The translations under genes were made by a program, and so were the position numbers. A stretch of DNA of 64,000 nucleotides from Anaerolineaceae bacterium (lineage in GTDB: Bacteria; Chloroflexota; Anaerolineae; Anaerolineales; Anaerolineaceae): the NCBI GenBank assembly GCA_017417055.1, contig JAFPZX010000072.1, positions 41,854-105,853 on the forward strand, in the 5' to 3' direction. Position 1 is the stretch's first letter. Each line of letters starts with the position of its first letter. Shown here piece after piece: positions 5,737 through 63,942 of this stretch. Under the pieces are notes generated by a model. The model saw nothing but the letters and a program-made list of their open reading frames with translations. It did not search any database and was not told where the DNA came from.

Positions 5737-5780
5737 AATCGGTCCTTTCTCCCTCATATCATGGTTAAATACAAATAGCC

Positions 5781-5809
5781 ACATTAATTGATTGCAATTA
5801 TTGTGCCAA
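5781..5809 (-). promoter_or_regulatory. Candidate promoter of the Cna-B protein gene
   Basis: On the minus strand TTGGCA (5804-5809) and TAATGT (5781-5786) are separated by 17 bases in an AT-rich stretch. They lie 45 bases upstream of the start codon at 5736. The -35 box matches 5/6 and the -10 box 4/6 of the consensus, so this is a moderate prediction. Confidence 0.4.
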
Positions 5810-8295: not shown

Positions 8296-9468
8296 TCAGG
8301 CGCGGACGATGCCGCCTTCGGTCATGCCGGGGAGGGAAATATCGTCACCGTACACATGGATCTCGGCAGATTTGTCAAGATTTCGCCGCACCAGCGCAGC
8401 TCGTGCCAGTACATGACGCAGGATCGTTTCTGTGATCCACATCAGTAGCTGCTGACGCTGCCGGAAGTTGCGGCAGGCGCTGTCCTCTATGCCGCCGGTT
8501 TCTGCTTTGGAAGACGCCCCCGGTTCCGCAAGAAAACTCACCGGGATCCCCACACCCGCCGCGATCACCTTCTTGATCGCCAACCCGTCTTCATTGGCCT
8601 CGCCGCTGTCCAGGTTGGGATGCACGGCTACCCATTCCTCGTTACTTCCCGCAACAAAAATCATCCCAGGCTGCATTTGCGAATTATTGAGCTGCGCCTC
8701 CCTCATTTTGCGCATGTCCTCACTCAAATCGGGAGCCTTCACCAGATAAATAAAACTGGAGCGGTAATGGTTTAGGGACCAGCGATCTTTCAGCCATTCC
8801 TGATAACGGGTCAACCAGGGCAGCACCGGCGCCAGGTCCGATTCTCCCCACTGCCCGCCGATGGGTCGGTTGACCGTGAAATGCAGCATGGCCTCTCCTT
8901 CGGTTGGCTCCATCAGGGAAGCCGTATAAACCGTTTTTTCCTCCGGAATCATCCTTGTTTGCGGATCCCCGATTTCTCTGAGCCGGAAATATTTCGTCTG
9001 CTCGATGTCGTTCTCGAATGGAACGATCTCCTCGATCAATCCCGCGGGAATGGCACGGACATAGCTCATGCCGCCCTTGTCAGATGCGAACATGATGAAG
9101 AGGTTGCCCGTGCGGCAGAGCTCATCGCTCCACTCCAGCAGCCGGGTATCCATACGATTCAGTGGATGCTCCCAGAACTCGTGCAGAAAATCGTCCGCTG
9201 CCGGGTCGTCCGCACTGATGCGGAAACCTCTTCCGATGCTGAACTGCGTCGTGAGCGAGACGATCCGCCGGGCAAGGGGATCATCCCGCCAGGCGTTCAG
9301 TCCCGCTTCAATGATGCTGCGGTAATTGGCCAGCGGACGGTCCCGCACACCGGTACCGCTTTCCCCAACATCGAAAAAACTATCGGATTCTTTCAGGGAA
9401 AGGGCAGCCTTTTTTCTGCCGGTGAAACGTTTCCGCAGCGCAGAAAACAAATCAAATGATTTTTTCAC
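8296..9468 (-). CDS. Phage portal-like protein, 390 aa
   Basis: The start is a GTG at 9468 with GGAGGA 5 bases upstream. The order of motifs fits phage portal proteins: an N-terminal basic stretch, 'SIIEAGLNAWRDDPLARRIV', a central fold with 'RAIPAGLIEEI', and 'NHYRSSFIYLVKAP' followed by a helix. A later segment reads 'GVGIPVSFLAEPGASSKAE', the usual region after the clip/stem. At 390 residues it is shorter than common portals (about 450-550), and it ends right next to a hairpin element, so the C-terminal tail may be lost. Its start overlaps the lysin gene by 17 bases. Portals form the dodecameric DNA channel of tailed phages. No terminase or capsid gene lies nearby, so the protein is probably a relic or repurposed. 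Confidence 0.72.
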   Translation of the reverse strand: MKKSFDLFSALRKRFTGRKKAALSLKESDSFFDVGESGTGVRDRPLANYRSIIEAGLNAWRDDPLARRIVSLTTQFSIGRGFRISADDPAADDFLHEFWEHPLNRMDTRLLEWSDELCRTGNLFIMFASDKGGMSYVRAIPAGLIEEIVPFENDIEQTKYFRLREIGDPQTRMIPEEKTVYTASLMEPTEGEAMLHFTVNRPIGGQWGESDLAPVLPWLTRYQEWLKDRWSLNHYRSSFIYLVKAPDLSEDMRKMREAQLNNSQMQPGMIFVAGSNEEWVAVHPNLDSGEANEDGLAIKKVIAAGVGIPVSFLAEPGASSKAETGGIEDSACRNFRQRQQLLMWITETILRHVLARAALVRRNLDKSAEIHVYGDDISLPGMTEGGIVRA

Positions 9469-29200: not shown

Positions 29201-29399
29201 GATTTTCCTCCGAACTGCTCAGACGCATGAGATTGTCTTTCATCCATAACACGGCGTCCGGTTCTATTCGGCTTTCCGCCCGGTCGAGCTTCGCCCGATA
29301 TCGAATCAGATAAATTGTCAGAATGATGGAAAAAAGGGTCATCGCGGCAAAACCGCCGTTGATTACAAAATCATCTGTCAGAGGGGGTAATACAGCCAT
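20262..29399 (-). CDS. Giant secreted repeat protein, about 3,045 aa
   Basis: The start at 29399 (MAVLPPL) has AAAGGTG 8 bases upstream; 50 more codons are open but lack a ribosome site. Residues about 10-36 form a membrane helix. Residues about 103-125 form a second hydrophobic stretch ending in an AxA-type site (SALAQTG), which looks like the real signal peptide. Residues about 130-750 are right-handed beta-helix rungs with 'SMSGG.I' motifs. Next come three InlB-B/Flg_new-like repeats, two SpaA-like prealbumin domains ('VRIRKVDEDGYEIGGAVVSI' region) and then 22 InlB-like repeats of about 70 residues. The final 330 residues are a separate domain with four Cys and no LPxTG motif or anchor helix. 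It is probably a very long adhesin or fibre. Codons 86-105 are formed by an H3 hairpin element. Confidence 0.85.
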   Translation of the reverse strand: MAVLPPLTDDFVINGGFAAMTLFSIILTIYLIRYRAKLDRAESRIEPDAVLWMKDNLMRLSSSEENPAGFTVRKLRYWDLRKRGGARLCSLFVPAARQQKGRPGVLFFLIMLAAAGVMCGTRGSALAQTGTAWSDSITLPNAAGTYYLTTDVTIGGGGIWIVPSGGVTLDLNGHNVTGCQFRINSGVTLTVKDTKNSGVITFITWPIEVNGGSFHFEGGTLTTSTDSAIVRVQNNGSFSMSGGTITGGRRGVALQNQDSFTMTGGKIIKCSIGVDIWEGSTAEISGGEISGHRSYGIHAVSGTVTMNGGVIKGNQNGIGIGERNISGTLNLSGGTITGNTHYGISYGNGVLNLSDAPADGATHPSVTENGDANVRILNGVNDLRINVTGPLSPSAILGISMAKPGVFTDGLNNRGTSANFSSDDAPHYAVRLTAAGEAELGRAVASITSGGVTNRYARLQDAMDAAQPNDTILLLDNISASTDTFPILAWQEDITLDLNGKTISGSPASSSGDLIQIYRKNVGGENSYGRLTLKDTAGSGEIICEAGGCENVINIRGGDPNVLTMYGGKISGGATNVRVNGNFTMHGGEISGGTTNVNSLGQFTMSGGKISGGTTGVICHTLCSMSGGEISGASGNGVTLDDTSVFNLLGGTISGNGQYAIEAFENSFVFISNGNPIIVSRGSAESSRGIYLHEGSGISIYETPAAGSSIGVTLESGAGVAARGSRSKAPTEDDLAVFSSDEGYAKFLNTTKKAIVFGYQISYDAGGAEGDLPDALNIDPTDTTADPTVPDRGSLTKTGYSFTGWKDEKGNEYAADADFKTLLAQYKPAGSVILTAQWEVNTYAVMLETYGGTINSGDVTQYTYGIGAALPTDVAWDHYSFGGWYENVDFSGDPVELISTSDTGDKTFYAKWIYAVSFDKNASDAQGPLNVSQFFIYNGAEQALLKNSFTREGYIFSGWNTVQDPKTQSGGAWYWDEMSVRNLPGDGIVTLYAQWEPTTVRIRKVDEDGYEIGGAVVSIFETLSGKPFGTEQTYDPARGDVIFEGLSIGVKYTVHEVKAPRGYSLAEDKTFVLDEYGFIDLFSADTTVKLIDGIIFLENEPTKVYVRKTDSQSGARLADAQLQLLNTQDGTVSWTSSGTDDREFSGLATGEEYTLHEAAAPSASYNAADDAVFVLDADVSIDPDLTTADYTMEGNNIILLVENVRLYTITFVNEDDSVLESEKWAYGSTPHYTGTLPEKPADVSHSYTFAGWSPHITTVTGDATYKATYTSELNNYTVRFVDEDGTELQTASYHYGTPAADIALPADPTKTSTAQYDYRFAGWTPDIAAVTGNAEYRASYTPVLRQYTVTFVNEDNSVLESGTWDYGATPHYTGTLPEKPADVSHSYTFAGWDPAVMTVTGDATYKAKYDQTVNTYLVTFVDEDGTELQSDRYAYGTPAADIAQPANPTKTSDAQYTYSFAGWTPAIAEVTGDATYRATYDAVLRQYTVTFLDDDGTELGRDLYPYGTLAADIVRPQDPEKTSDAQYHYTFAGWTPTFANVTGNAVYRASYDAVLRQYTVRFVNEDNTELQSGLWDYGATPVYHGDVPTKPADVSHTYHFAGWDPEIVTVTGDATYTAAYSQTENLYTVTFVDEDGTVLKEATEYPYGTKAADIAEPDDPVKTSTAQYDYTFAGWTPAITDVTGDVTYRATYNAVLRQYTVRFVNEDHTELQSGLWDYGAMPVYHGEVPTKPADVSHSYHFAGWDPEIVTVTGDAVYTAVYSQTENLYKITFVDEDGTVLKETEEYPYGTKAADIAEPDDPVKASTAQYDYTFAGWTPDIVDVTGDATYRATYTAVLRQYTVRFINDDGTTLQSGLWNYGVTPVYHGEVPTKRADVSHSYHFAGWSPAITPVTRNTVYTAAYSQTENLYKVTFVDEDGTVLKEATEYPYGTKAADIVKPDDPVKASTAQYDYTFAGWDPAIADVTEDAVYTAAYTAVLRQYTITFLNEDNTVLQSGLWDYGATPVYHGITPSKPADVSHTYHFAGWDPAITAVTGDATYTAAYSQTENLYTVTFVDEDGTVLKAAEEYPYGTLAADIVKPDDPVKASTLKDDYIFAGWSPDIADVTDDAVYTAAYTAVLRQYTVRFVNIDGSTLQSGLWNYGATPVYHGEVPTKPADASYSYHFTGWNPAITAVTGDATYTAAYSQTENLYTVTFVDEDGTVLKEATQYPYGTKAVNIAKPDDPVKPSTAQYEYTFTGWDPAIADVTADAVYTAAYSAALRRYTITFVNEDNTVLQSGLLDYGAMPVYHGEVPAKPADVSHSYHFAGWDPEIVSVTGDAVYTAVYSQTENLYTVTFVDEDGTVLKEAVEYPYGTKAADIAEPDDPVKPSTAQYDYIFAGWTPSIADVTADAVYTATYTAVLRQYTVTFLNEDGTVLKEAAEYPYGTQAADIVTPDDPVKASTVQYDYIFAGWTPSIADVSEDAVYTAAYTAVLRQYTVTFLNEDYTELQSGLWDYGAMPVYHGEVPAKPADVSHSYHFAGWDPAITAVTGDTFYIATYSQAENLYTVTFVDEDGTVLKEAVEYPYGTLAADIAEPDDPMKPSTAQYDYIFAGWAPDIADVTADAVYTATYKAFLRQYTVRFVNEDGTELESVMWDYGEIPVYTGKTPVKEGESGVVYTFIGWTDGTTDYGLSDSLPAVTGDVTYTARFTSEMLAFTVTWLNWNFVELETDENVPYGTRPSYDGETPTREDADGLVYTFAGWTDGMVDYGPSDPLPAVTADVTYTARFTSETNIYHVLVTSDENGTAYAIPSEGPTGTEVTLFATPNVNCQFVRWEVIKGEVTVNDNKFVIMHSDVEIQAVFEAIENPFVMDVTINNIMGNGSKGAPKDISTTHMDPTVILMSVLHETSGKFNDGITVHPGEFQIKTTVTFANEVPDISSALYEVLVEGLPKLVSSAGKDDNKYLLTYNAWINNEGGITINLIWTDKYYVPFDEVYVFPLPEDEIGAYKMDPWGKKEYLIFHTYEICMRWLGSDELCSGYERCFHKELPYIYDKNKIRYGYDWAQP
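21085..25790 (-). repeat. 22 coding repeats, alternating A and B types
   Basis: Each unit is about 69-79 codons. Type A has 'LQSGLWDYGATPVYHGEVP' and 'SHSYHFAGWDP'. Type B has 'LKEATEYPYGTKAADIAEP' and 'STAQYDYTFAGWTP'. They mostly alternate A-B, giving a higher-order unit of about 423 bases. Two places break the pattern with consecutive B units (units 4-5 and 17-18). The last two units are a third, longer variant. Confidence 0.9.
29083..29144 (-). repeat. Nested hairpin element, family H3, copy 4, inside a coding region
   Basis: Very similar to the intergenic copy at 18235 (TTTTTG / CAAAAA stem, GCAGTC and GGCAGACC ends). Here it is translated in frame between the first membrane helix and the signal-like segment of the giant protein, as 'ARLCSLFVPAARQQKGRPG'. 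Confidence 0.85.
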
Positions 29400-29688
29400 T
29401 CTATATACACCTTTCATTTCATAAGCTTGATCCGCCTGTATGACGCATGACGCATGATGCATGACGTAAGCATCAGTCCCGTCTGCACACCACAAATCGT
29501 AGATATACCATCGATGAGCACATGCTTCGGGATCTTCCCTGATACCCATACAAATCAGCTAATCCAGAGATTATTCGTCTCATGGCCCTATATTATACCA
29601 CACTTTTAAAATCTTAAAGAAATATTGTCCTGATTCCGTGCCGGGGACACTTCTCCCGAATAAGTGGTTGAATGAGGGATCGGAATGA

Positions 29689-53435: not shown

Positions 53436-53903
53436 ATGGATATAGAAGAAGAATACGACAAAATATTCCGCTATTGTTACTGGAAAGTCCACAACAAAGA
53501 AATCGCTGAGGACATAACTCAGGAAACATTTCTGCGCTTTCTGCAAAGCAATTATGACGAACGCGGGAAAAGGATTCGCTTTTTATATACCATCGCAGGA
53601 AATCTCTGCATAGATGAATTCAGAAAGAAACCTTTTGAAGATTATTCCCTTGATTCTTCTGAAAAGAATGGAACCACAGAAGACTTTTTCACACAAATCT
53701 ATGTAAAACAGATCCTCTCACAGCTCGCTGAAGAAGACCGGGACCTGATGATTATGCGGTATATCAACCGGGAATCCATAACAGATATTTGTGAAGTCAT
53801 TGGGATTTCCCGCTTCGCTTTATACCGAAGGCTGAGGGGAATCAAAAAAGTTTTAGCCGCTTCCGGGAAAGGACACATAGAAGATGAGCAAAATGACCAA
53901 TAA
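53436..53903 (+). CDS. ECF-type RNA polymerase sigma factor, 155 aa
   Basis: Region 2 is 'YDKIFRYCYWKVHNKEIAED' with 'ITQETFLRFLQ', the core-binding and -10 recognition part. Region 4 is 'LAEEDRDLMIMRYINRESIT' with 'ICEVIGISRFALYRRLRGIK' for the -35 element. No anti-sigma gene of a recognised type is adjacent. It is the first gene of an operon with a membrane protein and an ABC transporter, which suggests that it switches on the same operon or a related stress response. The ribosome site is weak (GAAGAG). Confidence 0.9.
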   Translation: MDIEEEYDKIFRYCYWKVHNKEIAEDITQETFLRFLQSNYDERGKRIRFLYTIAGNLCIDEFRKKPFEDYSLDSSEKNGTTEDFFTQIYVKQILSQLAEEDRDLMIMRYINRESITDICEVIGISRFALYRRLRGIKKVLAASGKGHIEDEQNDQ

Positions 53904-54594
53904 ATTAGCAGATGCATCGCCCGCTCCTGATCCAATTCGAAAAGATCACTTTATCCGGACGTATCGCAGCAAAGCCGGTGCAGCAAACTTGAGCATGCGC
54001 TCTCTGATTCTCTCTCAGATCAACTATATCAGTGCACCTGTGTGGGTCACAACGCTGGCTGTACTTTTTCTTGTTTTGTATGCGGTTCATACGGATCAAG
54101 ACATCATATTCCTGACGGCATCGCTCACACCGTTCGTTTCCGGAATAGCCATTTTTGATTCATTCCGTTCACAATTTTATTCAATGACTGAAATGGAAAG
54201 TGCTTCCCTTTTTTCACTGAGAGGAATTTTTTTCGCGAAAATGATTTGTATAGGTATTGTGCACATCTTTTTCATCCTTATGCTTTCACTCATAATATCT
54301 CCTCACACCAGATTCAGTTATATCAAGACAGGAATCATAATCACAATGCCCTACCTACTTTCATCAATTATTTGTTTGAAAGCTGAAAGAAGCATATTGG
54401 GACGGAAAAATCCTTTCATTTGTCTTGGAATTTCGGCATTGATTTCTGCGTTAGTTTTTTTCACCAAAGCAATTTCAAAAAGAATTACATACACACTTCC
54501 TGAATTTTGGTTCATACTGTTCATCACACTTGCAGTATTGGCAGGGAATGAAATCAGAAAAACACTCAAATGGGAGGAATATTTATGGAATTAA
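53884..54594 (+). CDS. Polytopic membrane protein in sigma-ABC operon, 236 aa
   Basis: About six membrane helices follow a cytoplasmic N-terminus of 45 residues ('NKLADASPAPDPIRKDHFIR'). I do not recognise a family with certainty. It overlaps the sigma factor gene by 20 bases and the ATPase gene by 10, so it is translated with both. It could be a transporter subunit, or a membrane partner that restrains the sigma factor through its N-terminal tail; the second idea is inference from position. There are no catalytic motifs. The FFTK.. and Ile-rich pattern is AT-biased compared with groEL upstream. Confidence 0.8.
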   Translation: MSKMTNKLADASPAPDPIRKDHFIRTYRSKAGAANLSMRSLILSQINYISAPVWVTTLAVLFLVLYAVHTDQDIIFLTASLTPFVSGIAIFDSFRSQFYSMTEMESASLFSLRGIFFAKMICIGIVHIFFILMLSLIISPHTRFSYIKTGIIITMPYLLSSIICLKAERSILGRKNPFICLGISALISALVFFTKAISKRITYTLPEFWFILFITLAVLAGNEIRKTLKWEEYLWN

Positions 54595-55289
54595 TTGCCG
54601 ACCGGCTCACAAAACGTTATAAGAATATTATCGCCGCGGACAGGCTGACATTTACGCTAAAAAAAGGCGTTACGGGCCTCATCGGAGCCAACGGAGCAGG
54701 AAAAACAACGCTGATGCGCATGCTCTGCGGAATTCTCACCCCAACCGAAGGAACGATCACCTACAATGGGGCACCCGTAACAGGAGAAAGCTACCGGAGC
54801 ATCTTAGGCTATTTGCCGCAGGATTTTGGATATTATCCCGATTTCACCGGCAAAGATTTTCTGCTATACTTTTCCGCTTTGAAAGGCTTGAGCAAAGCGG
54901 ATGCAAAGACAAGAACTGAGGAGCTGCTGCAAATTACAGGGCTTTCAGACGCCGGAAGAAAAAAAGTAAAAACATATTCCGGTGGAATGAAACAGCGGCT
55001 TGGTATAGCACAGGCTTTAATCAACCGACCGGAAGTGCTGATTTTGGATGAACCGACAGCCGGACTGGATCCGCAGGAACGGGCAAGATTCCGGGATCTG
55101 ATCGCGGAAATCGGACGAGAGAATATCGTCCTGCTTTCGACACACATTCTTTCCGACATAGAGCATATCGCGGAAAGGATCATTATGATGAAATCCGGAC
55201 AAATTATCTGGCAGGGTGAATGGAAGGGAAATGAAGGAGATTTGGAAACTTTCTATCTCAAAGAATTCGGGGAGGCGGCCCATGCATAA
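54585..55289 (+). CDS. ABC transporter ATP-binding protein, 234 aa
   Basis: Complete ATPase: Walker A 'GLIGANGAGKTTLMRML', signature 'YSGGMKQRLGIAQALI', Walker B 'VLILDEPTAGLDPQER' and the switch 'LLSTHILSDIEHI'. It resembles the CcmA/NatA type of ABC-2 exporters. The start at 54585 (MELIADR) is set by GGGAGGA 7 bases upstream. The stop overlaps the permease start by 8 bases. It powers the adjacent permease. Confidence 0.94.
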   Translation: MELIADRLTKRYKNIIAADRLTFTLKKGVTGLIGANGAGKTTLMRMLCGILTPTEGTITYNGAPVTGESYRSILGYLPQDFGYYPDFTGKDFLLYFSALKGLSKADAKTRTEELLQITGLSDAGRKKVKTYSGGMKQRLGIAQALINRPEVLILDEPTAGLDPQERARFRDLIAEIGRENIVLLSTHILSDIEHIAERIIMMKSGQIIWQGEWKGNEGDLETFYLKEFGEAAHA

Positions 55290-56448
55290 TTTCGGTACGC
55301 TGCTTGGATATGAGCTGAAAAAGCTGCTCTTCAATAAAGTCACAATCCTGATGCTCTCACTGTTCACAGGCCTCCTTTTCGGAATAACCATGCTCGAATA
55401 TCTGGTGATTGCCCCGGATGACTGCTATGTGGCGCAGCGGGAATCCGCACTGGGAGGGAAAATGCTCGATGACGAAATGCTGAAGAGAATCGAGGATGAA
55501 GCGGAGAAATATGGCGGGCTTACCCGAATCGACGGAAGCAGTATCTTCTATCATCTCGCACAATATTTGATCCGCGCTTTGGGAACTTACCTGAATGTTC
55601 CTGACACTGTATCCGCGGTTTCGACCGCACCGCTGACAGCGGAAAGTTTTTACAAAAATCGTGAGAACATTCTGGAATATCTTTTTGATAATTTTCTTCT
55701 GGAAGAAAACGAAAAAGCATTTTGGAGGAGCAAGGAATTAGAAATCACTAAACCCTTCACCTGGAAAGCAAATTACGGCATATCCGCGATGAGACGGAAT
55801 TATGGCATGTTAATCACCCTTTCCATGCTCACCATCGGGATTTGTCTTTCGGGGATTTTTGCCTCAGAGTCACGATACCGCACTGATGCGCTGATCGAAT
55901 GTACGGTAGAAGGGAAAAGGACTCTCCCCCTGGTGAAAATTTTAGCCGGTGAACTGTTTTCCCTGATCGTGAGCTTTCTGCTTCTCGCCGCAGCCCAGCT
56001 CCCCAGTATACTATTCAACGGGTTCCATGGCATCGAAACAGCCTGCCAGATCATCGCTCCATTTTTCTCCTATCCATGGACATCAGGGAGACTGCTCCTG
56101 GTCTACACCGGGATATACTTCCTGGCAGGGCTGCTGCTTGGCTCCATCGCAATCGTAATGTCAAAATTGATAAACAATATGATTGCGGTCAGCAGCTGTA
56201 TTTGTTTTACGGTGCTGCTGGATCTGTTCACAACGATCCCGTCAGAATTCAGAATCCTTTCACAAATCCGCAGCTTCACCCCGCTGCAGGTATTGATCAA
56301 TTCATCCATTATGGATCCAAGACTAATCAGAGTCGGAGAGAGATACCTGACTGTATTCCAATCCGCACCGATAATTTATGGCGTGATAGCAATTATGTTG
56401 TGTCTGATTACAATATCCATCAGCAGAAAGCATATTTTCCCCGGTTAA
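55282..56448 (+). CDS. ABC-2-type permease, 388 aa
   Basis: The layout is one N-terminal helix ('NKVTILMLSLFTGLLFGITM'), a long extracytoplasmic part (residues about 45-170) and then about five helices, as in ABC-2 and NatB-like permeases. The start at 55282 (MHNFGTLLGYELKK) has GGAGG 7 bases ahead. The 'FASESRYRTDALIECT' loop is the usual cytoplasmic coupling region. The partner is the ATPase at 54585. The substrate is unknown; self-protection or lantibiotic immunity-type export is common for this arrangement. Confidence 0.88.
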   Translation: MHNFGTLLGYELKKLLFNKVTILMLSLFTGLLFGITMLEYLVIAPDDCYVAQRESALGGKMLDDEMLKRIEDEAEKYGGLTRIDGSSIFYHLAQYLIRALGTYLNVPDTVSAVSTAPLTAESFYKNRENILEYLFDNFLLEENEKAFWRSKELEITKPFTWKANYGISAMRRNYGMLITLSMLTIGICLSGIFASESRYRTDALIECTVEGKRTLPLVKILAGELFSLIVSFLLLAAAQLPSILFNGFHGIETACQIIAPFFSYPWTSGRLLLVYTGIYFLAGLLLGSIAIVMSKLINNMIAVSSCICFTVLLDLFTTIPSEFRILSQIRSFTPLQVLINSSIMDPRLIRVGERYLTVFQSAPIIYGVIAIMLCLITISISRKHIFPG

Positions 56449-56466: not shown

Positions 56467-56655
56467 ATGCCGAGGTCACGCAAGGTCACGACCGTATGCA
56501 ACGGCAGGCGTGAGGTCTGGACGGATTACGAACAAGCAAAGGCATATTTTCTTGAAATGATGATGTCCGCCGCGGGCGAGGAGCGTGACCGAGCAGAGTG
56601 CATTTACATTCAGCTATTACACGGGCTTGACGAGTGTTCCGACGAAGATGAATAA
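56467..56655 (+). CDS. Small acidic protein of mobile-element type, 62 aa
   Basis: The sequence has 'VCNGRREVWTDYEQAKAYFL' and an acidic tail 'GLDECSDEDE'. From memory, near-identical short proteins are encoded beside relaxase and excision genes in clostridial integrative elements, so it may be a trace of an element that brought in the RiPP-like cluster. There is no clear ribosome site and no other mobile gene is in view. The stop lies 11 bases before a shared terminator. Confidence 0.6.
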   Translation: MPRSRKVTTVCNGRREVWTDYEQAKAYFLEMMMSAAGEERDRAECIYIQLLHGLDECSDEDE

Positions 56656-56666
56656 GCGGAAATAAA

Positions 56667-56704
56667 AATAGCTCAGAGTGTAAAAAACTCCGAGCTATTT
56701 TTCT
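56667..56704. terminator. Bidirectional terminator at the end of the RiPP cluster
   Basis: AAAAATAGCTC / GAGCTATTTTT with inner GAGT / ACTC pairing and T runs on both sides. It closes the plus-strand small gene and the minus-strand cluster. The stop codon of the ABC exporter gene lies inside the stem. Confidence 0.88.
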
Positions 56705-58395
56705 GTATTTGTGAAGTCGATAACCCTGTCGCATATCTCCAACGCCGCAGGACGATGCGTAACGATAACAACCGTTTTATCCGTCATACGCCTGAGATTT
56801 TGGAGCAATCGTTTTTCTGTATCGGCATCAAGCGCCGAAGTCGCTTCATCAAGGAGCAGTATCGGGCTTTCTGAAAATATCGCCCTTGCAATTGCTATTC
56901 TCTGCATCTGCCCCTCGGAAAGACCCGTGCCACGCTCACCGAGCAGCGTATCAATACCGCCGTCAAGCTCCGACACAAAATCATCGGCGCAGGCTATATG
57001 CAAAGCCCTGTTGATACGCTCATCGTTTTGCATATCTGCCTTGTCAGCGAAAGCGACGATTTCACGGATAGTGCCACTCATAAGCTGATTTCCTTGCGGG
57101 ACATAGGCGAATAGCCTGTGCCATTCAGCCGTCAGCGGTTTTGTACCTTGCGTATCGGTCAGATAACGCTCACCGCCGTCAAGCAGATAAATGCTCATGA
57201 GCAGTTTCAGCACCGTGGATTTTCCGCAGCCGCTATGCCCCATGAACGCCACATATTCGCCCTTACTTATCTTAATGCTGATATTTTTCAGCACTATTGG
57301 TTGGTTGTCTTTTGTCAGGTCTTTAATGCTGTCAACAGCAGGATAGTATGTGAAGTCGGCATTTTTCAAGCCGAATGCTTTTAGTGAGTCGGAGTAATAT
57401 GCCTTGACAGTATCAATATCAAGAGTCTGCTTTTCACTGTCATCACAGAAATCCTCGATCTCCATTAGTCGCTCCGCACTTGCCGTCATAGCATAGAACC
57501 TCGGCAGATAACCCGTAATACCGACAAATGGAGCTTGTATTTGTGAGATAAGCTGTGTGATCGCCGTAAGCGTGCCATAGCTTATCGTGCCGAGCAGAAT
57601 GCCATATCCGCAGTAGCAGACACCGAACAGATACATTCCGTTTATTGCGAACCCGAAACCGATATTACATATATTAGAAAAGCGGTTTTTCTTCATTCTT
57701 GCAGTTTTATGGGCTTTCATTCGCTCGTTTGCCTGCGTCTCTGTCTGCTGTTCGGTCGCAAATGACCGTATCATCATCATACTGCCTATATGCTCCTGCA
57801 AGAAGATACGGAGCTTGCCGTCACGCTCCTGCACTTGTTTATGGAGTTTTTTCAGCACCTTGCGAAAAGCGTAGGTGAATAAAAACAAGAATACTCCGCA
57901 GGGAAGAAGAAAACAAGCAAAACGCCAGTCAAGCACTATCATCATAATGACCGCACTTATCAGCTTTACCACCATACCGACCAGCCCGGGCAATATCTCT
58001 ACATAGGCATTTGCTACCACAACGGTATCATTCGTCAGCCGATTGAGCCATTCGCCTGAATGAACTGCATTGACACTTGCAAAGTCTTTTCTGAGAATAT
58101 TCCGCATTAGCCGTTTTTTGAAAATGTTTTCAAAAGTCGCCCTGGACAGTTCATTCAACCAACGGATAATCGCACTCATACCAATCTGAGCCAGCACAAG
58201 CAGGACTGTCAGCACCACATAATGCCAAAATCCTGCCTTATCGTGAGCCGTGGCATTGTCTACGATATTCCGCAGTAACAGCGCATACAGCACACCGCTT
58301 GCGCCGTTGAGTGCCTGAACGAGCATCAGAGCGAGGATGTACAGCTTTTTCTTTTCGGGAACGGCATAGAGCCATTTTATCGCATTATTCTTCAT
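56695..58395 (-). CDS. ABC exporter (membrane + ATPase), RiPP cluster, 566 aa
   Basis: Residues about 18-290 form six helices and residues about 330-560 the ATPase: Walker A 'VAFMGHSGCGKSTVLKLL', signature 'GLSEGQMQRIAIARAIF', Walker B 'ILLLDEATSALDAD' and switch His 'VIVTHRPAAL'. There is no N-terminal C39 peptidase, so leader removal would need another enzyme, and an S26-type peptidase is encoded just upstream. It is the last gene of the cluster, 29 bases after the peptidase stop. Its likely job is export of the mature peptide. Family members occur in many clostridial peptide clusters. Confidence 0.9.
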   Translation of the reverse strand: MKNNAIKWLYAVPEKKKLYILALMLVQALNGASGVLYALLLRNIVDNATAHDKAGFWHYVVLTVLLVLAQIGMSAIIRWLNELSRATFENIFKKRLMRNILRKDFASVNAVHSGEWLNRLTNDTVVVANAYVEILPGLVGMVVKLISAVIMMIVLDWRFACFLLPCGVFLFLFTYAFRKVLKKLHKQVQERDGKLRIFLQEHIGSMMMIRSFATEQQTETQANERMKAHKTARMKKNRFSNICNIGFGFAINGMYLFGVCYCGYGILLGTISYGTLTAITQLISQIQAPFVGITGYLPRFYAMTASAERLMEIEDFCDDSEKQTLDIDTVKAYYSDSLKAFGLKNADFTYYPAVDSIKDLTKDNQPIVLKNISIKISKGEYVAFMGHSGCGKSTVLKLLMSIYLLDGGERYLTDTQGTKPLTAEWHRLFAYVPQGNQLMSGTIREIVAFADKADMQNDERINRALHIACADDFVSELDGGIDTLLGERGTGLSEGQMQRIAIARAIFSESPILLLDEATSALDADTEKRLLQNLRRMTDKTVVIVTHRPAALEICDRVIDFTNTEK

Positions 58396-58424
58396 ATCGT
58401 TTTTTCAGCCATTTCGAGATGTGG

Positions 58425-58904
58425 TTATTGGGGAAGAATAACCCTTTTGAGCTTATTGATTGCTCTAAAAGGAAACAGCATCACCGGACGGATCTTCCAA
58501 AAACGATTCCACCGTCTGAACCTTCGTATCCATTTCGGTGATTCACAGTCGATTGTTCTATTCCCTCTTTTAATTAAAACCGCCTTACCGAGAAGCTTAT
58601 CCCTACCAATCCATCCATCCGGAAATTTGCAACCATCTCCAAAGGTCTGAACCCTGTCTCCATCCATCTTATACAGCCGGTGTAGACAATAATTCCCACC
58701 TTTGCATATTGCAGGAAACAATACAATATCCCCGATTTTGTATTTATCTTTGGGCACAGATACAATCATAACATCATCCTGAAAAGCCCGGATAAAGGGA
58801 AACATACTATTACCGGTCACCTGAAACCACACCGGAATATCAACCAGCCCGTCCGTGTCCTTCATGCTGTTCCATTGTTCTATGCTTAACAGAATCTTTT
58901 CCAA
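58425..58904 (-). CDS. S24/S26 signal-peptidase-like protein, RiPP cluster, 159 aa
   Basis: 'VWFQVTGNSMFPFIRAFQDD' holds the GxSM motif with Ser33 as probable nucleophile. 'NYCLHRLYKMDGDRVQTFGD' holds His75-Arg76 where the general base sits. Ser/His dyads of this kind are seen in the SipW/ER (Sec11) branch of S26, while most bacterial enzymes use Lys. The C-terminal 40 residues are basic ('KWIRRFRRWNRFWKIRPVML') and may attach to the membrane. The start is a TTG at 58904, with AAAGGG about 11 bases upstream. A peptide-maturation role is inferred from the cluster. Confidence 0.82.
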   Translation of the reverse strand: MEKILLSIEQWNSMKDTDGLVDIPVWFQVTGNSMFPFIRAFQDDVMIVSVPKDKYKIGDIVLFPAICKGGNYCLHRLYKMDGDRVQTFGDGCKFPDGWIGRDKLLGKAVLIKRGNRTIDCESPKWIRRFRRWNRFWKIRPVMLFPFRAINKLKRVILPQ

Positions 58905-58939
58905 ACAACCATACCCTTTCTTGTCTTAAAACGCAAAAT

Positions 58940-60094
58940 CTAATCGCTCAATCCGAAGTTATCCATAAGCCGCCTGACATGCCTTGCATCTTCATCATTC
59001 ACTTTAACACTTGCGGTTTTAGCAACATTTTCTCTTCTATGAAGCAAAACATCAATAATTCTATATATCCACGCAAAAGGAAGGAGTATCGGCCACTTTT
59101 TCAAAACAGGATACCTGAGGCACATGTCCAAATATGCCAAAAATGTCCAGCTCAGGAAAAACATCACCCGGCTCTTCCCGCCCTTATCCATATACTTCCA
59201 ACCCATCCTATCGGGGAGCTTTCTATTTTCGGGAAAGAACATCTCCATATCCAATTCGGAAACCTCTGTCGGCTCATCACCGAAAAACGTATACGCTAAT
59301 GACCTGATCTTCTCTTCAAATTTCAGCAGCCCCACTGAATCCAGCTGCTTTCTTATATAGTCAGTATTCCATCCTTTAGCATACTTCTGGTTCAGCACAT
59401 AGATATCTCCCACATGACGGATATGTGCCTCGCGATTCTTAAAATGCTTTGCAGCATGGGCAATCTCATGAATGTACATATCCTCCGGTGTCAGATGGTA
59501 CAGATTCGGAATCCTCTCATCAAGGACCGCCCGTTCAAATATATTATCAAAGATCGGCTTATATGGGCTGTCATCTGCCATCAGATGCCTGTGCAATTCA
59601 ATACTCATGCACGGTTTTTTGTGAAAAACATCATGAACACCTTTTTCCAGATTCTCCGTGGAATATCCGAAAGCCTCCATCAAATCGGCTAATTCCTTCG
59701 CTGTTACTCCCTTGTATAGCAAGTCCACATCTGACATAACACGAAAATTCGGAGAAGGATACAATTCCTTCATCACACAGCCCTTTAGCGGAATTATCTT
59801 CACGCCATTCCCGCAGAGATACTCCACCAGCTTGTGATACTCCGACATCTGGATCTCGCTGCGCATACAGTCGTCCAGAAAGCGTTTCTGGTATTCTCCC
59901 CATTTATCGCTTGCGGGCTTCGGCTCTATCATATTCAGAGCGCAGAAAGAGATCGGTGCCATATTCCTTCCCGAACCGATAGTAAATATATCATCCGCTT
60001 TTATCCCTTCCGGCAGTACAGAAGGCTTTTTATTATTCAAAACTGCAGCTACGGTGTTAAGGAACACACCCTCGGCTGTTATTGTATCCACCAT
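58940..60094 (-). CDS. Nucleotidyltransferase-fold protein (PF14907-like), RiPP cluster, 384 aa
   Basis: The nucleotidyltransferase signature is clear: 'IIPLKGCVMKELYPSPNFRV' followed by 'MSDVDLLYKG', with Asp122 and Asp124 as metal ligands. 'CMSIELHRHL' (Glu) and 'HEIAHAAKHFKNREAHIRHV' complete the PF14907 pattern found in lantibiotic and lasso peptide clusters, where its reaction is unproven. The start at 60094 (MVDTITAEGV) follows GGTGGTGA; a longer frame is open upstream but unsupported. Its first 85 bases and leader are duplicated ahead of the kinase gene (61292-61360). Confidence 0.85.
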   Translation of the reverse strand: MVDTITAEGVFLNTVAAVLNNKKPSVLPEGIKADDIFTIGSGRNMAPISFCALNMIEPKPASDKWGEYQKRFLDDCMRSEIQMSEYHKLVEYLCGNGVKIIPLKGCVMKELYPSPNFRVMSDVDLLYKGVTAKELADLMEAFGYSTENLEKGVHDVFHKKPCMSIELHRHLMADDSPYKPIFDNIFERAVLDERIPNLYHLTPEDMYIHEIAHAAKHFKNREAHIRHVGDIYVLNQKYAKGWNTDYIRKQLDSVGLLKFEEKIRSLAYTFFGDEPTEVSELDMEMFFPENRKLPDRMGWKYMDKGGKSRVMFFLSWTFLAYLDMCLRYPVLKKWPILLPFAWIYRIIDVLLHRRENVAKTASVKVNDEDARHVRRLMDNFGLSD

Positions 60095-60142
60095 ATCTTT
60101 ATCACCACCATTACGATTCTGAAAAACAACTCCTCCGCCTTC
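60059..60142. repeat. Direct repeat at the 5' end of the nucleotidyltransferase gene
   Basis: It matches 61292-61360 almost exactly, except for 18 extra bases (60094-60111 region) around the ATG. It covers half of the terminator stem (CTCCTCCGCC), the leader and the first 12 codons. Confidence 0.9.
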
Positions 60143-60254
60143 TTCCAATCGGGCATCACCGGGTTCATGCACGGTAATTTTTTCAAAATGGATCCGTGAA
60201 CTTGCAATCCGGCAATCATATGTCCGTAAAAAAAACACATTCGCCTGCGCCGCC

Positions 60255-61193
60255 TTATTCTGCCGGCGGTGTCCCGGAAAGCGCCTCAAGAGCTTCCCTG
60301 AGTGCCCGGGCAGAGGCGTAGCGCTGCTCAGGATCAGGGGCGCAGGCTTTTAGCACGATTTCTGACAGCGCTGCGTCGGCGTGCTTCGGCGGGGGCAAAG
60401 GCAGAATGCCGCGCTTGAACACCTCAAAGGCAATTTTCCGCTCCATCGTCGTTACGGAACGATCCGCAGGCAGGAATGGATAGGTGTCAGAGTTTAACAA
60501 CTTATACAGAAACATACCTGCACAATATATATCCTTCTTCACAATGCTTTCATGATCCCGGGGATTCAGTTCCTTGGTATATCCCTCCGCGCCATTATTC
60601 ATTACATCCCCCGTACGATCATTTTTCGGTTGGCAGAACTCCTCCATCCTGGCAGAGCCAAAATCCCCCAGCTTGAAATGACTGTCCGCGTCCACGAAGA
60701 TGTTGTGTTGATGGAAGTCACGGTAGACGATCTTGTTTCTGTGGCAGTGCTCCACGGCGAGACACAAGTCTATTCCAAGGCGAACGATGTCCTCTTGGGT
60801 CAGTTCGTCACGCTGTTCACGCCAAAGCCTGAAAGGCTTCAACAGCTCCATGCGGATCAGTACATAATCTTGATCGGATTCCTCATCGCGCATCACGGCG
60901 AAATCCTCTATGGAGACGATGTGCGGGTCTCCTTTCAGGATCTGCATCACCCGTGCCTCCAGGCTCAGATCCTTCACGCACTTTTCCGGATATTGTTTGA
61001 TTTCATCCCGGGCTCCCCCTTGGCGAACTCGCTCCGGTGCCTTCTCGGAAGAAATGACCTTGACCGCGTACCGCACCTCGCCGGTCGGACTCTTGTGCGC
61101 GATCTCATAGACGCGGCCACTTGTTCCCTCTCCCAGGACACCCAATACCTCATAGTCCGGCCATTGCCGTCGTATGAGCGCTTCGTGATCCAT
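60255..61193 (-). CDS. Ser/Thr protein kinase, RiPP cluster, 312 aa
   Basis: A full Hanks-type kinase domain fills the protein: glycine loop 'LGEGTSGRVYEIA' (about residues 20-32), Lys45 in 'YAVKVIS', Glu79 as probable helix-C partner, catalytic loop 'IVYRDFHQHNIF' with Asp159, and 'LGDFGS' with Asp177. HRD is YRD here, but the catalytic Asp and Asn are kept, so activity is plausible. There is no membrane helix or sensor domain. AAGGAGG lies 6 bases before the ATG at 61193. It lies downstream of the precursor gene and upstream of the nucleotidyltransferase. A kinase of this type is unusual in a peptide cluster; it could modify the peptide or regulate the pathway. Confidence 0.9.
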   Translation of the reverse strand: MDHEALIRRQWPDYEVLGVLGEGTSGRVYEIAHKSPTGEVRYAVKVISSEKAPERVRQGGARDEIKQYPEKCVKDLSLEARVMQILKGDPHIVSIEDFAVMRDEESDQDYVLIRMELLKPFRLWREQRDELTQEDIVRLGIDLCLAVEHCHRNKIVYRDFHQHNIFVDADSHFKLGDFGSARMEEFCQPKNDRTGDVMNNGAEGYTKELNPRDHESIVKKDIYCAGMFLYKLLNSDTYPFLPADRSVTTMERKIAFEVFKRGILPLPPPKHADAALSEIVLKACAPDPEQRYASARALREALEALSGTPPAE

Positions 61194-61214
61194 ACCGTAC
61201 CTCCTTGCCGTCAT

Positions 61215-61330
61215 CTTTCCAAATACTCTGGAGATATCCTGCCAGCTTATAGTATTCCGACGTCCGGAAATCGTTTCCAGTATTCTCCCCATTAAGAACA
61301 CACCCTCGGCTGTTATTGTATCCACCATTA
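61215..61330 (-). pseudogene. Fragment of the nucleotidyltransferase 5' region ahead of the kinase
   Basis: After the repeated MVDTITAEGVFL codons, the frame breaks. Further bases in another frame give 'RTSEYYKLAGYL', close to 'QMSEYHKLVEYL' (residues 82-93) of the nucleotidyltransferase. So a shortened, frameshifted copy of that gene's start lies between precursor and kinase. Confidence 0.55.
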
Positions 61331-61360
61331 CGATTCTGAAAAACAACTCCTCCGCCTTCC
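61292..61360. repeat. Direct repeat upstream of the kinase gene
   Basis: The partner of the repeat at 60059-60142. Here it lacks the 18-base insert and includes half of the terminator hairpin that follows the precursor gene. Confidence 0.9.
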
Positions 61361-61381
61361 CGAAAAAAGGTCGGAGGAGTC
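61340..61381 (-). terminator. Hairpin terminator/attenuator after the precursor gene
   Basis: On the minus strand ACTCCTCCG / CGGAGGAGT with further CC / GG pairing, followed by TGTTTTTC. It lies 30 bases after the precursor stop and before the kinase gene. Such a hairpin would yield excess precursor mRNA over tailoring genes. Confidence 0.8.
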
Positions 61382-61410
61382 ATCAATTTTGTGTCCGGTA
61401 TCCCGGTTAG

Positions 61411-61536
61411 TTAAAACACGCTCTGGCCGCATCCAGATGTACTCCAACCACAGGTTGAAGCAGCAATTCTGTCACTGAAATCAAACTCTACCATAGTAAC
61501 AGTAGGCTCTTCATAGACCTTCTTTTCATTGTCCAT
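61411..61536 (-). CDS. RiPP precursor peptide, 41 aa
   Basis: GGAG lies 9 bases before the ATG at 61536, and the stop is at 61411. The leader is acidic (MDNEKKVYEEP... then VEFDFSDRIAAS), and the end 'TCGWSTSGCGQSVF' is a Cys-, Ser-, Thr- and Gly-rich core with two Cys seven residues apart. It sits directly after the PqqD-like gene and before a hairpin, the usual place for a precursor. The Cys-containing core with a radical SAM/SPASM enzyme suggests thioether (sactipeptide/ranthipeptide-like) or carbon-carbon cross-links. The modification type is inference. It is too short to appear in most automatic gene calls. Confidence 0.85.
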   Translation of the reverse strand: MDNEKKVYEEPTVTMVEFDFSDRIAASTCGWSTSGCGQSVF

Positions 61537-61587
61537 TGCAGTAATCTCCTTTCGTAAAATTTATATAACCCCTGAAGGGATCATATA

Positions 61588-61851
61588 CTAAGCATTGATA
61601 ACGCCTGCTTCTTTCAACGAAGCGATCGTCTTTTCGACATCGCTCTTTGCTTTTTCAAGCGTTACATCATATTCGCGGGTAAGAGTTTCAGCCGTTTCCT
61701 CGATCGTTCTTCCGCTTTTCAATTCGGAAAAGATCAAAGCTCCGGTGTCATTCAGAACTAATGCTCCCTTAAACTCCTTCACATTTGCGCCTGTCGGCAT
61801 AACAAGATTCATTCCCGGCATTTTTCTAAGCACAAAACCTTCCTTGATCAT
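61588..61851 (-). CDS. PqqD-like leader-binding protein, 87 aa
   Basis: The fold is the RiPP recognition element: 'GANVKEFKGALVLNDTGALI' strands, then 'FSELKSGRTIEETAETLTRE' and 'YDVTLEKAKSDVEKTIASLK' helices, matching PqqD. It would bind the precursor leader and bring it to the radical SAM enzyme. Three ATG codons follow each other at 61857-61849; the third is chosen for its 7-base distance from AAAGGAG. The upstream gene's stop overlaps the first ATG. Confidence 0.88.
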   Translation of the reverse strand: MIKEGFVLRKMPGMNLVMPTGANVKEFKGALVLNDTGALIFSELKSGRTIEETAETLTREYDVTLEKAKSDVEKTIASLKEAGVINA

Positions 61852-61853
61852 CA

Positions 61854-62948
61854 TCATTCTCCTTTATTTTCAGTATTATGTTTATTATTTGCCATTTCAA
61901 TGCGTTCTATGGTATAAGCACATACCGATTCGTCGCACAGGTGTCGATCCGCTGTCCTGCTGTGCGAAACCGGACAGTAATGGCATCTTGTGTTGTATTC
62001 ACAGCTATGGCATTTCTCTGGGATTACAAAGTTCCTGATTGCCTCATTCAATTCCGACCACGCCCGATGGAAACCCTTTTCAAGCGTATTCACACTTATA
62101 ACCGTTTTCGGAAATGCAAGACATGGTGCCAGGGTGCCATCCCAGTTTAACGCAAAACCTGTTCTCCCGGCATTGCAGTATAGTCCTTTTTCCGATACAT
62201 CCGGTCTGTCTGAATGACCATAAATCTCATTATCTTCCTGACTGTAATCCGGAAAGAAGATCTCCTTTTTCATTTCCATTATTTTGTCAACTTCTATGTT
62301 GGAAAGATCAAATTCACTTTTATGCCTTCCGGTATCGGGATTAGGTTCCAAAAGCATACCACTGACATTAACGCTAACATCAAAAGTTCTCGCCAGTGTC
62401 ATAGTCTGCTCTATCCACGGAGACAGAAAACTGCTTGGCGTGATCATAAGCCGTATGTTGAGTCCCATATCTATCGCCGCGCGGATATTCTTTGTAACTG
62501 TCTCAAAAGCGTCCACTCCGGTTACAGCTACATAAGACTCACTGTCACAGCCATAGAGTGATATATCGATTCTGAATGGCGGATACTCCGTAAATTTTCT
62601 GATATTCTCCTCATTCAGCAGAATGCCGTTGGTCTTGACCTGCACCGACACGCCATGGTCGATCAGATACATATAGATATCCCAGAAATCCGGGTGTGTC
62701 ATCGCCTCCCCGCCGGTAAGCAGAGCGACCATCATTCCGTCATCTATCGCACCCTGGATCAGCGGGATCAACTGCTCTTTTCTGAGCATTCTTTCCTTTA
62801 CGGAGGGGTCCTGCAAATGGACATAGCACATCTTACAGTCCAGATTGCAGAGCGGAGTCAGTTCAAAAGACCCTGTTGACGGCGTGTCCGACTTATATGC
62901 GTTATCCGCCATCAGCTTTGTAAACTCGTTAAAAGAAATCTTATCCAT
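61854..62948 (-). CDS. Radical SAM/SPASM peptide maturase, 364 aa
   Basis: The radical SAM cluster is 'TPLCNLDCKMCYVH' (Cys34, Cys38, Cys41). 'LLTGGEAMTHPDF' is the GGE-type motif, and 'VKTNGILL' and 'RIDISLYGC' follow. The C-terminal SPASM/twitch region has 'YCNAGRTGFALNWDGTLAPC', 'EKCHSCEYNTRCHYCPVSHS' and 'HLCDESVC', with Cys spacing for auxiliary iron-sulfur clusters. It would generate a 5'-deoxyadenosyl radical to modify the precursor core. The start at 62948 is fixed by GGAGGAG 4 bases upstream. The gene overlaps the HprK-like gene end by 8 bases. Confidence 0.93.
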   Translation of the reverse strand: MDKISFNEFTKLMADNAYKSDTPSTGSFELTPLCNLDCKMCYVHLQDPSVKERMLRKEQLIPLIQGAIDDGMMVALLTGGEAMTHPDFWDIYMYLIDHGVSVQVKTNGILLNEENIRKFTEYPPFRIDISLYGCDSESYVAVTGVDAFETVTKNIRAAIDMGLNIRLMITPSSFLSPWIEQTMTLARTFDVSVNVSGMLLEPNPDTGRHKSEFDLSNIEVDKIMEMKKEIFFPDYSQEDNEIYGHSDRPDVSEKGLYCNAGRTGFALNWDGTLAPCLAFPKTVISVNTLEKGFHRAWSELNEAIRNFVIPEKCHSCEYNTRCHYCPVSHSRTADRHLCDESVCAYTIERIEMANNKHNTENKGE

Positions 62949-63855
62949 CGGTCTCCTCCTCAAATACTGCCTTGTAAGTTATATCTGTGGCATTTTTATC
63001 AGGCAGATTCTTAAGGTGATAAAATGGAACATCTCCAGCAAGTTTTCCCATAAGTGTCATTGCCTTATCCATTGCTGCATTATCCCACATCGGTATCATA
63101 GCCTGGTTCAGAAGCACCAGCATTGCCTGCTGCGTTGTCAGTTTTTTTATCCGGTTTTCCTTTGCCTGTTCCAAAGAAACCAGTGCTCTGATAGGTACTT
63201 TCTTCTGATTTCTGATATTGTCCTTGCCATCCCACGGCATACCGAAGCCATACCATGTACCGTCAATATACCGCAATCCCGGTCTGTCGCCTATGATAAA
63301 ATCAGCTTTCTGATACTTTTCCCACAACTTCGCCTGCGTGGATTTCCCCATACCGGAAGGTCCTAAGAAAATGATACCCTGTCCGTCCTTCTCCACCATG
63401 GAAGCATGAAGAGGAAGACCGTCATGCATTACCATTCCCGCCTCACAGAATGTACGGACTATGCTTGAAAACGGGATGTGCGGCTTTTTCCATTTGTCCC
63501 TTGCTTCAGAGTAATACGGCTCATTCGACATATACACAGTCATTTCGCTATAATCCTTTGAAGCAGTAACCACATACTTCATGTGATATTTCAGGGCAGT
63601 TTCATTCAGCAGGCTGAGAATACTCCATGTATCTCCATCATCATATATTGCAAAATTCTCCGTAGTACACATCTGCGTATGCTTTAAGACTTCTTCGTAT
63701 TTTTTGTCCAGCAGAGTTTCTTCACCCATGTGAACCGTGAAGGTATGGGTATAGGACATCTCATTCCTGAAGGCAGAGAGATACTGCATGGATTCATGTT
63801 CACTTATAGCATCATCTACCAACAGGCGGTAATTAGCGAAATAGTATTCCTGCAT
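62941..63855 (-). CDS. HPr kinase-like P-loop protein, RiPP cluster, 304 aa
   Basis: The N-terminal 140 residues are a divergent domain. The C-terminal part resembles HprK: 'LPLHASMVEKDGQGIIFLGP' leading to the P-loop 'GPSGMGKSTQAKLW' (residues about 165-178), then 'FIIGDRPGLRYIDGTWYGFG'. Similar HprK-like proteins occur with PqqD and nucleotidyltransferase genes in lasso and other peptide clusters; in paeninodin biosynthesis a related kinase phosphorylates the precursor. Here it is the first gene of the cluster. Phosphorylation of Ser or Thr in the core is possible but unproven. Confidence 0.85.
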   Translation of the reverse strand: MQEYYFANYRLLVDDAISEHESMQYLSAFRNEMSYTHTFTVHMGEETLLDKKYEEVLKHTQMCTTENFAIYDDGDTWSILSLLNETALKYHMKYVVTASKDYSEMTVYMSNEPYYSEARDKWKKPHIPFSSIVRTFCEAGMVMHDGLPLHASMVEKDGQGIIFLGPSGMGKSTQAKLWEKYQKADFIIGDRPGLRYIDGTWYGFGMPWDGKDNIRNQKKVPIRALVSLEQAKENRIKKLTTQQAMLVLLNQAMIPMWDNAAMDKAMTLMGKLAGDVPFYHLKNLPDKNATDITYKAVFEEETDG

Positions 63856-63894: not shown

Positions 63895-63942
63895 AAAAAA
63901 GCGCACTCCATAGGATATGATTATCCCATAGAGCACGCTTTT
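63895..63942. terminator. Bidirectional hairpin upstream of the RiPP operon
   Basis: A 17-bp stem with several G-U pairs (GCGTGCTCTATGGGATA on the minus strand) and an ATCA loop at 63901-63938, with T runs on both sides. It lies 40 bases ahead of the HprK-like gene. It could end transcripts entering from outside the window or act as a leader attenuator. Confidence 0.7.

Follow-up and report, generated by a model that had tools for sequence, protein, structure and literature searches.

A probable ribosomal peptide cassette combining a radical SAM/SPASM enzyme with an HprK-like kinase and a SipW-like peptidase in an Anaerolineaceae bacterium

A cluster of eight co-directional genes lies at one end of a 64,000-nucleotide stretch (the window) of contig JAFPZX010000072.1 (C167) from an Anaerolineaceae bacterium (GenBank assembly GCA_017417055.1). 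The list of open reading frames (ORFs) and family searches confirmed all eight genes on the minus strand at 56695-63855, in the order given in the original prediction: HprK-like kinase, radical SAM/SPASM enzyme, PqqD-like protein, 41-residue precursor, Ser/Thr kinase of the Hanks type, PF14907 nucleotidyltransferase, S26-type peptidase and ABC exporter. All eight frames are open. The likely starts are ATG codons at 62948 for the radical SAM enzyme (364 amino acids), at 60094 for the nucleotidyltransferase (384 amino acids, corrected from 449) and at 61193 for the Ser/Thr kinase (312 amino acids, corrected from 363), the last preceded by AAGGAGG. The window ends with the contig (contig position 105853), 145 bases upstream of the HprK-like gene, and gene content is readable only up to there. 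Folding and a terminator scan both found a strong hairpin followed by a T-run upstream of the operon (63898-63941), and a run of CAGA repeats occupies the contig end (63979-64000, minus strand).

The precursor gene (61411-61536) encodes a leader of about MDNEKKVYEEPTVTMVEFDFSDRIAAS and a core of about TCGWSTSGCGQSVF, divided at a putative cleavage point. A radical SAM scan of a genome collection yielded 79 loci, taken from the 80 best among 94 confirmed places. Of these, 30 were chosen as a close set for the similarity of their radical SAM enzyme, which is therefore present in all of them by construction. A precursor homologue adjoins the radical SAM gene in all 30 close loci; the short frame is thus more than a chance ORF, and a lack of conservation, which would have told against the original prediction, is excluded. 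The leader pattern YExPxVxxVEFD...IAASGC occurs in the precursors of every close locus, whether from Bacillota, Bacteroidota, Actinomycetota or Synergistota. The following counts refer to 29 distinct precursors, window included, the identical L017 and L021 precursors having been dropped. A 19-residue leader segment has 73% pairwise identity, while the cores past their first three residues (after SGC) share 19%, against 18% when shuffled. YxxPx[V/I] begins 28 of the 29 leaders and FxxPxV the other, and the remainder reads VEFD...RIAAS. Core length is 14-22 amino acids by the cut used here. Two cysteines are present in 26 cores, three in two and one in one (at least two in 28/29). Motif position 19 is Ser in 27 precursors, and position 21 is Cys in 25. 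A conserved leader joined to a variable core is the RiPP (ribosomally synthesized and post-translationally modified peptide) pattern. An NCBIfam scan of seven precursors returned nothing useful. Directly behind the precursor lies a terminator-like hairpin (61342-61384, minus strand; 76-nt fold of -26.6 kcal/mol with a z-score of -3.28, matched by 1 of 200 shuffles), which is absent from the list of a simple terminator scan. It is perhaps a partial terminator favoring the precursor transcript, as expected where precursor is needed in excess.

The genes around the precursor recur as a kit. Within 7 kb of the radical SAM gene and on the same strand, the 30 close loci carry the precursor 30 times, PqqD 29, the HprK-like kinase 25, the S26 peptidase 25, the nucleotidyltransferase 9, the exporter 5 and the Hanks-type kinase once, as counted with profiles built on the very loci counted. 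In all five loci without the HprK-like gene the contig ends less than 600 bases downstream of the radical SAM gene (L034 also lacks it in 8 kb upstream), and in all five without the S26 gene it ends within 1.1 kb downstream. In loci of Bacillota, Actinomycetota and Synergistota the HprK-like gene, where seen, precedes the radical SAM gene; in Bacteroidota it follows the S26 gene. All nine nucleotidyltransferases are outside Bacteroidota, the one in L035 being a fragment. Recurrence of the gene order had been proposed as a check on the original prediction; the kit does recur, and the exact eight-gene content is found again only in locus L009 (Lachnospiraceae UBA3804). Together with the conserved leader and the variable two-Cys core, this recurrence supports the earlier suggestion that the genes form a RiPP cluster involving radical SAM modification. 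The 49 more distant loci (27-35% radical SAM identity in the 18 aligned) have, within 6 kb, 30 HprK-like, 22 S26, 19 exporter, 16 PqqD and 9 nucleotidyltransferase genes; PqqD is undercounted here (one label was given per open frame), and a PqqD-like sequence could be aligned from 30 of the 49 (34 distant rows, with L004, L006, L007 and L008 set aside).

Close-set radical SAM enzymes are 48-98% identical to that of the window (26 aligned). In a quick tree, most rows of which are metagenome bins, they form one starred branch of 31 rows with it (19 Bacteroidota, 8 Bacillota, 2 Actinomycetota, 1 Synergistota and the window). The window and L009 adjoin Bacteroidota rows (support 94), apart from the other Bacillota of the close set, a placement that suggests transfer between phyla. 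Among 147 genomes of the window's own family, four match the radical SAM enzyme at 1e-30, namely its own genome and three at 28-31% identity. The window genome also holds a second cluster (L004:9431-16237, contig C136) with an HprK-like gene, a pair of short Cys-rich ORFs (YEKP leader in one), radical SAM/SPASM, PqqD, S26, exporter and PF14907 genes, and with no Hanks-type kinase among them; its radical SAM/SPASM enzyme is nearest to TIGR04463, under the cut-off. Extra tailoring candidates within relatives' clusters are an arylsulfotransferase (PF05935, L027:9915-11789) and a group 1 glycosyltransferase (L037:9506-10699).

The radical SAM/SPASM enzyme (61854-62948) matches PF04055 at 4.8e-19 and SPASM at 21.0 bits (cut-off 21.5). 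The CxxxCxxC motif (C34, C38, C41) and C258, C276, C313, C316, C322, C325 and C343 are invariant in all 45 aligned sequences, comprising the window, 26 of the 30 close loci (L017, L021, L026 and L029 left out) and 18 more distant ones. The seven further cysteines follow the SPASM spacing. The best solved relative of the profile is the sactisynthase SkfB (6efn, E 2.5e-26), and at 1e-10 the aligned enzymes match the NCBIfam models AlbA (44), SkfB (40), PapB (14) and StsB (11). These matches, and the two or more cysteines of nearly all cores, would also suit a sactipeptide- or ranthipeptide-like thioether cluster, in which the HprK-like, nucleotidyltransferase and S26 proteins are accessory and the product is defined by a Cys cross-link of a known linkage class alone. 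Such clusters likewise pair a radical SAM/SPASM maturase with Cys-containing cores. Some sactipeptide clusters are reported to have a discrete RiPP recognition element (RRE) as well (PMC12710340). We regard this alternative as rather unlikely. The window enzyme lies far below the SkfB, AlbA and PapB family cut-offs; its scores for all 17 listed NCBIfam families stay under the respective cut-offs (AlbA 47 bits against 850), and the AhbD and MoaA models fit better than AlbA. The HprK-like and S26 genes, in 25 of 30 loci each, are too constant for accessories, and sactipeptide or ranthipeptide clusters are not generally known to contain HprK or SipW-like genes.

The discrete RRE of the PqqD type (61588-61857, 89 amino acids) matches PF05402 at 4.5e-13. 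Across the window and the close loci, N36 is kept in 30/30 sequences and D73 in 26/28. The two correspond in the alignment to N33 and D70 of LppB, each pair lying 37 residues apart, and these LppB residues are described as holding the leader around its Pro and Tyr (PMC13381572). A covariation between the leader Tyr and the RRE Asp is weakened, L027 (Phe with Ser73) speaking for it and L019 (Tyr with Ser73) against. The HprK-like kinase (62941-63855, 304 amino acids) has ScmC as its best NCBIfam match (44.8 bits, cut-off 125) and reaches 14.9 bits for Hpr_kinase_C (cut-off 33.3). Its Walker A motif GPSGMGKST is invariant except for one position in 23 aligned relatives, one of them (the L012 row) taken from another cluster on the L012 contig. 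Weak matches to solved proteins place the P-loop protein 6c2u first (E 0.0007) and HPr kinase/phosphatase 1ko7 second (E 0.0018). The nucleotidyltransferase (58940-60094) matches PF14907 at 3.6e-38, scored on the longer ORF, with R118, D122 and D124 invariant in 13 of 13 aligned. The SipW-like S26 peptidase (58425-58904, 159 amino acids) matches signal peptidase I TIGR02228 (3.9e-7) and Pfam S24 (1.2e-3), both under cut-off, and has no solved relative at E 1; S33, H75, D90 and D119 are invariant in 26/26 aligned, the L012 row again coming from another cluster on that contig. The MsbA-like exporter (56695-58395, 566 amino acids) matches ABC_membrane PF00664 (3.8e-34) and ABC_tran PF00005 (7.9e-26). 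Its identity is 64% with the L031 exporter and 59% with the one in L004, the second cluster of the window genome; the exporter of L009 falls outside the 12 best rows.

The original prediction recognized no described class with this content, which holds in part. The chassis was described in 2026 for linear polyphosphorylated peptides (LPP), whose conserved set consists of an HprK-like kinase, a discrete RRE, a nucleotidyltransferase, a SipW-like peptidase and an MsbA-like exporter (Popov 2026; PMC13381572). In that work the kinase phosphorylates core Ser3, leader cleavage by the peptidase LppS depends on the RRE and needs S29, H68 and D93, deletion of the NTP transferase made no change in the host of that study, and the discussion calls LPP restricted to Bacillota (PMC13381572). 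The gene set is present in the window, HprK by motif and weak profile only, and the peptidase is SipW-like by its under-cut-off TIGR02228 match and invariant S33, H75, D90 and D119, in an alignment to which LppS itself does not belong. The YxxPxV leader, variable C-terminus and patchy spread also resemble LPP as described there (PMC13381572). Against the same description, the present cluster differs in the radical SAM/SPASM gene between HprK and PqqD, where the linear LPP product involves no further primary-modifying or cyclising enzyme, in its short two-Cys cores (14-22 amino acids) and in the loci in Bacteroidota, Actinomycetota and Synergistota. We do not file it as LPP, because the rest of the leader motif differs and a gene for another primary chemistry is present; the cassette would work as an LPP pathway does, with one step more. 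The terms "Radical SAM", "rSAM" and "SPASM" occur nowhere in the main text of the LPP paper (PMC13381572), and among the matches listed by full-text searches we found no description of a radical SAM enzyme in an LPP-type chassis, although this radical SAM family may be listed in the 2022 rSAM-RiPP atlas (Clark and Seyedsayamdost). "Already described" thus applies to the LPP chassis and not to the radical SAM variant.

Lasso peptides of the paeninodin and pseudomycoidin type share an RRE with a [Y/W]xxP leader, an HprK-like kinase and a nucleotidyltransferase (PMC9266682, PMC7533575); the pseudomycoidin nucleotidyltransferase PsmN is reportedly tied to hexoses on phosphorylated Ser (PMC9266682). 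The window cluster differs from these in its radical SAM gene, and a lasso cluster was rejected, since neither a macrolactam synthetase nor a B2 cysteine protease was matched among the eight products (Pfam and NCBIfam, up to the contig end). The SynChlorMet cassette (NCBIfam Scm), which presumably comprises HprK-like ScmC, PqqD-like ScmD and radical SAM ScmE/F, is weakly resembled by the corresponding three proteins, at scores far under the cut-offs (ScmC 44.8/125, ScmD 13.6/100, ScmF 57.4/400 bits), and no publication bearing its name turned up among the full texts searched. Class III/IV lanthipeptide synthetases differ in their lyase and cyclase domains, which are absent here; the 312-residue Hanks-type kinase is single-domain and scores 49.8 bits for LanL against 650.

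We conclude that the window probably carries a RiPP cassette built on a chassis common to LPP and paeninodin-like lasso peptides, in which the radical SAM/SPASM enzyme replaces the lasso cyclase or adds to the LPP set. Several observations weigh against this conclusion. The HprK label is weak by family search, with every match under cut-off. The PqqD-like protein is nearer in sequence to the lasso RRE TfuB1 (6jx3, E 9.7e-6) than to LppB (9x8z, E 0.48), and of the LPP leader YxxPxVLxHQxIxFETxxS (PMC13381572) only YxxPxV is matched. The nucleotidyltransferase was not found in any of the 19 Bacteroidota close loci, and the exporter is present in just 5 of 30, a fragment in L011. One core contains only one Cys, and in two a Trp occupies the first-Cys site. 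In 14 of the 49 distant loci no HprK-like, S26 or PqqD gene was found within 6 kb, some of these being on short contigs.

The window and L009 share 96% DNA identity over 5.4 kb, from the HprK-like gene to within the S26 gene, and their exporters differ. The middle part has 0.91-1.00 identity in 150-base bins; the value drops to 0.77 where HprK begins and to 0.80 within S26. The leader DNA is identical. The core carries 12 base differences where 0.64 would be expected from the radical SAM, PqqD and kinase genes (P 6e-12), altering seven codons and six amino acids; one Ser is kept through a switch from AGT to TCT, and both cores retain S-x-C-x-(W/F)-S-T-S-x-C-G-x-S-x-F. A diversity-generating retroelement is not favored as the source of the variation, as these changes extend beyond adenines (no reverse transcriptase search was made).

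The L009 cassette (with L090-L092, G147 contig 6) is flanked by phage tail, holin and endolysin genes and, on the other side, by a row of three large serine recombinases; genes for terminase, portal, head protease and major head protein lie farther upstream. Of the 18 proteins scanned from this record, 17 match a PHROG, some of unknown function (8/8 and 9/10), and the cassette looks like cargo of an apparently full prophage. MobA/MobL relaxases lie near L031 and L032. Seven kilobases of L009 phage DNA found no match in the window genome (85% complete), which has six matches at 1e-3 to the serine integrase family phrog_95 (contigs C25, C29, C55, C128 and C142), none of them on the window's contig. 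Viral contigs yielded no relative to single radical SAM and kinase queries or an HprK profile query, and one remote match (24% identity) to a radical SAM profile. Phage records gave six remote radical SAM matches (20-29% identity), and plasmids gave none at 1e-20 and three remote HprK matches (26-30%).

The Hanks-type kinase (60255-61193, minus strand; Pkinase 2.3e-26), which the original prediction counted in an unusual mix, appears to be an inserted gene and not a conserved part of the family. Among the 30 close loci only L009 has it, and no further match appeared in sampled genomes of the order (400, at 1e-40) and class (396, at 1e-25), the window's own genome being counted in both and at most five candidates per genome being scored among the matches listed. 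The gene is flanked by copies of the nucleotidyltransferase 5'-end: a full one downstream, lacking the left arm of the hairpin, and upstream a partial one with internal deletions (61230-61359, minus strand; gaps of 17, 155 and 26 bases), which has identical repeats of 38 and 33 bp and an 83% repeat of 40 bp of stretches in 59865-60142. GC content is 0.47-0.57 in the kinase and 0.39-0.52 in the rest of the operon (300-base windows). We infer an insertion from the two 5'-end copies, the raised GC and the absence from relatives; in its course either the target would have been duplicated or a second nucleotidyltransferase copy largely replaced. As a class-defining gene the kinase was rejected on its single occurrence among the close loci and its insertion footprint. 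L009 shares the whole kinase and repeat arrangement, both kinases are intact with 7 of 312 residues different, and the gene looks like a later insertion kept intact by two close copies. It may be a hitchhiker, a defense gene or a recruited tailoring enzyme.

A dedicated core-modifying enzyme of the window/L009 sub-lineage, phosphorylating the S-T-S stretch, perhaps en route to dehydration, would account for a kinase gene directly behind the precursor, for the core pattern shared by the two copies and for the Ser kept despite its codon switch. The lysine, D-x-x-x-x-N and DFG kinase motifs are kept as well. We nevertheless think this improbable: 29 of 30 relatives lack the gene, the gene bears an insertion footprint, no lyase or cyclase was found among the eight products in Pfam and NCBIfam scans, and purifying selection is not significant (dN/dS, the ratio of nonsynonymous to synonymous rates, 0.34; 6 synonymous and 7 nonsynonymous changes, Fisher p 0.086). 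A phage-exclusion or defense gene inserted in a mobile cargo cassette is somewhat doubtful too, although less so. The L009 copy is inside a prophage, and the best PADLOC matches are mad6 (4.7e-34) and PD-T4-6 (1.9e-29), models against which Hanks kinases generally tend to score, which counts against this explanation; NCBIfam MAD6 is reached at 84.8 bits, compared with a cut-off of 460. That the whole operon is a decaying, non-functional remnant could be argued from the nucleotidyltransferase 5'-end remnant and the adjoining contig end. With all eight frames open and dN/dS against L009 of 0.32 for the radical SAM gene, 0.25 for the nucleotidyltransferase, 0.07 for S26 and the value above for the kinase, this is very improbable (HprK, at 0.32, is unsure because of a gapped alignment).

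Other features of the window were noted in passing. An opposite-strand operon (53436-56448) adjoins the cluster, with an ECF-type sigma factor by family search, followed by membrane-protein-like ORFs and an ABC ATPase by sequence look. Beside the exporter, a 62-residue ORF (56467-56655) matches only phrog_34775 (1.1e-14, unknown function). At 8296-9468 (minus strand) there is a match to the phage portal protein phrog_10963 (1.5e-26), adjoined by the ORF 5994-7337. Two long ORFs with repeats look like surface proteins by sequence: one of 3095 amino acids with many similar repeats (20262-29549), and an adhesin-like one of 1928 amino acids with repeated domains (1-5784, minus strand, open at the window edge).

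By analogy with published LPP and lasso work, the PqqD protein would bind the YxxPxV motif of the leader. The HprK-like kinase would phosphorylate the conserved Ser just ahead of the first Cys; with a leader that stops at motif position 16, this Ser would be the third core residue, as it is in LPP. Where present, the nucleotidyltransferase may elaborate the phosphate on that Ser, the SipW-like peptidase would cut within or beside R-I-A-A-S, and the MsbA-like transporter would export the peptide. Our guess for the radical step, which would follow leader binding and precede phosphorylation, is a modification of the short two-Cys core, most likely a Cys-centered cross-link (thioether) or another bond nearby; as to the role of the peptide, a variable core in a mobile cassette would suit a bacteriocin or a signal, again as a guess. 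A bolder reading is tentative and, in our estimate, somewhat short of an even chance. It holds that the loci form a distinct RiPP class, making a short hypervariable peptide with an HprK-made (poly)phosphate or phospho-sugar on the conserved Ser and a radical SAM cross-link at the neighboring Cys, carried from one gut phylum to another in part by prophage, with strong diversifying selection acting on the core and exporters swapped as modules.

On sequence grounds, the RiPP family is real and spans four phyla; its chassis has been known since 2026, and the extra kinase lies outside the family. The cassette of this gut bacterium probably makes a small modified peptide. Joining HprK phosphorylation and SipW-like leader removal with radical SAM chemistry on one lasso-type leader would open the modular evolution of RiPP pathways to direct testing. 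Cassettes that are nearly identical, with the same leader but another core, offer natural probes of how much the enzymes tolerate, which is of use for peptide engineering. Should the chassis prove to be shared, its range would extend past Bacillota.

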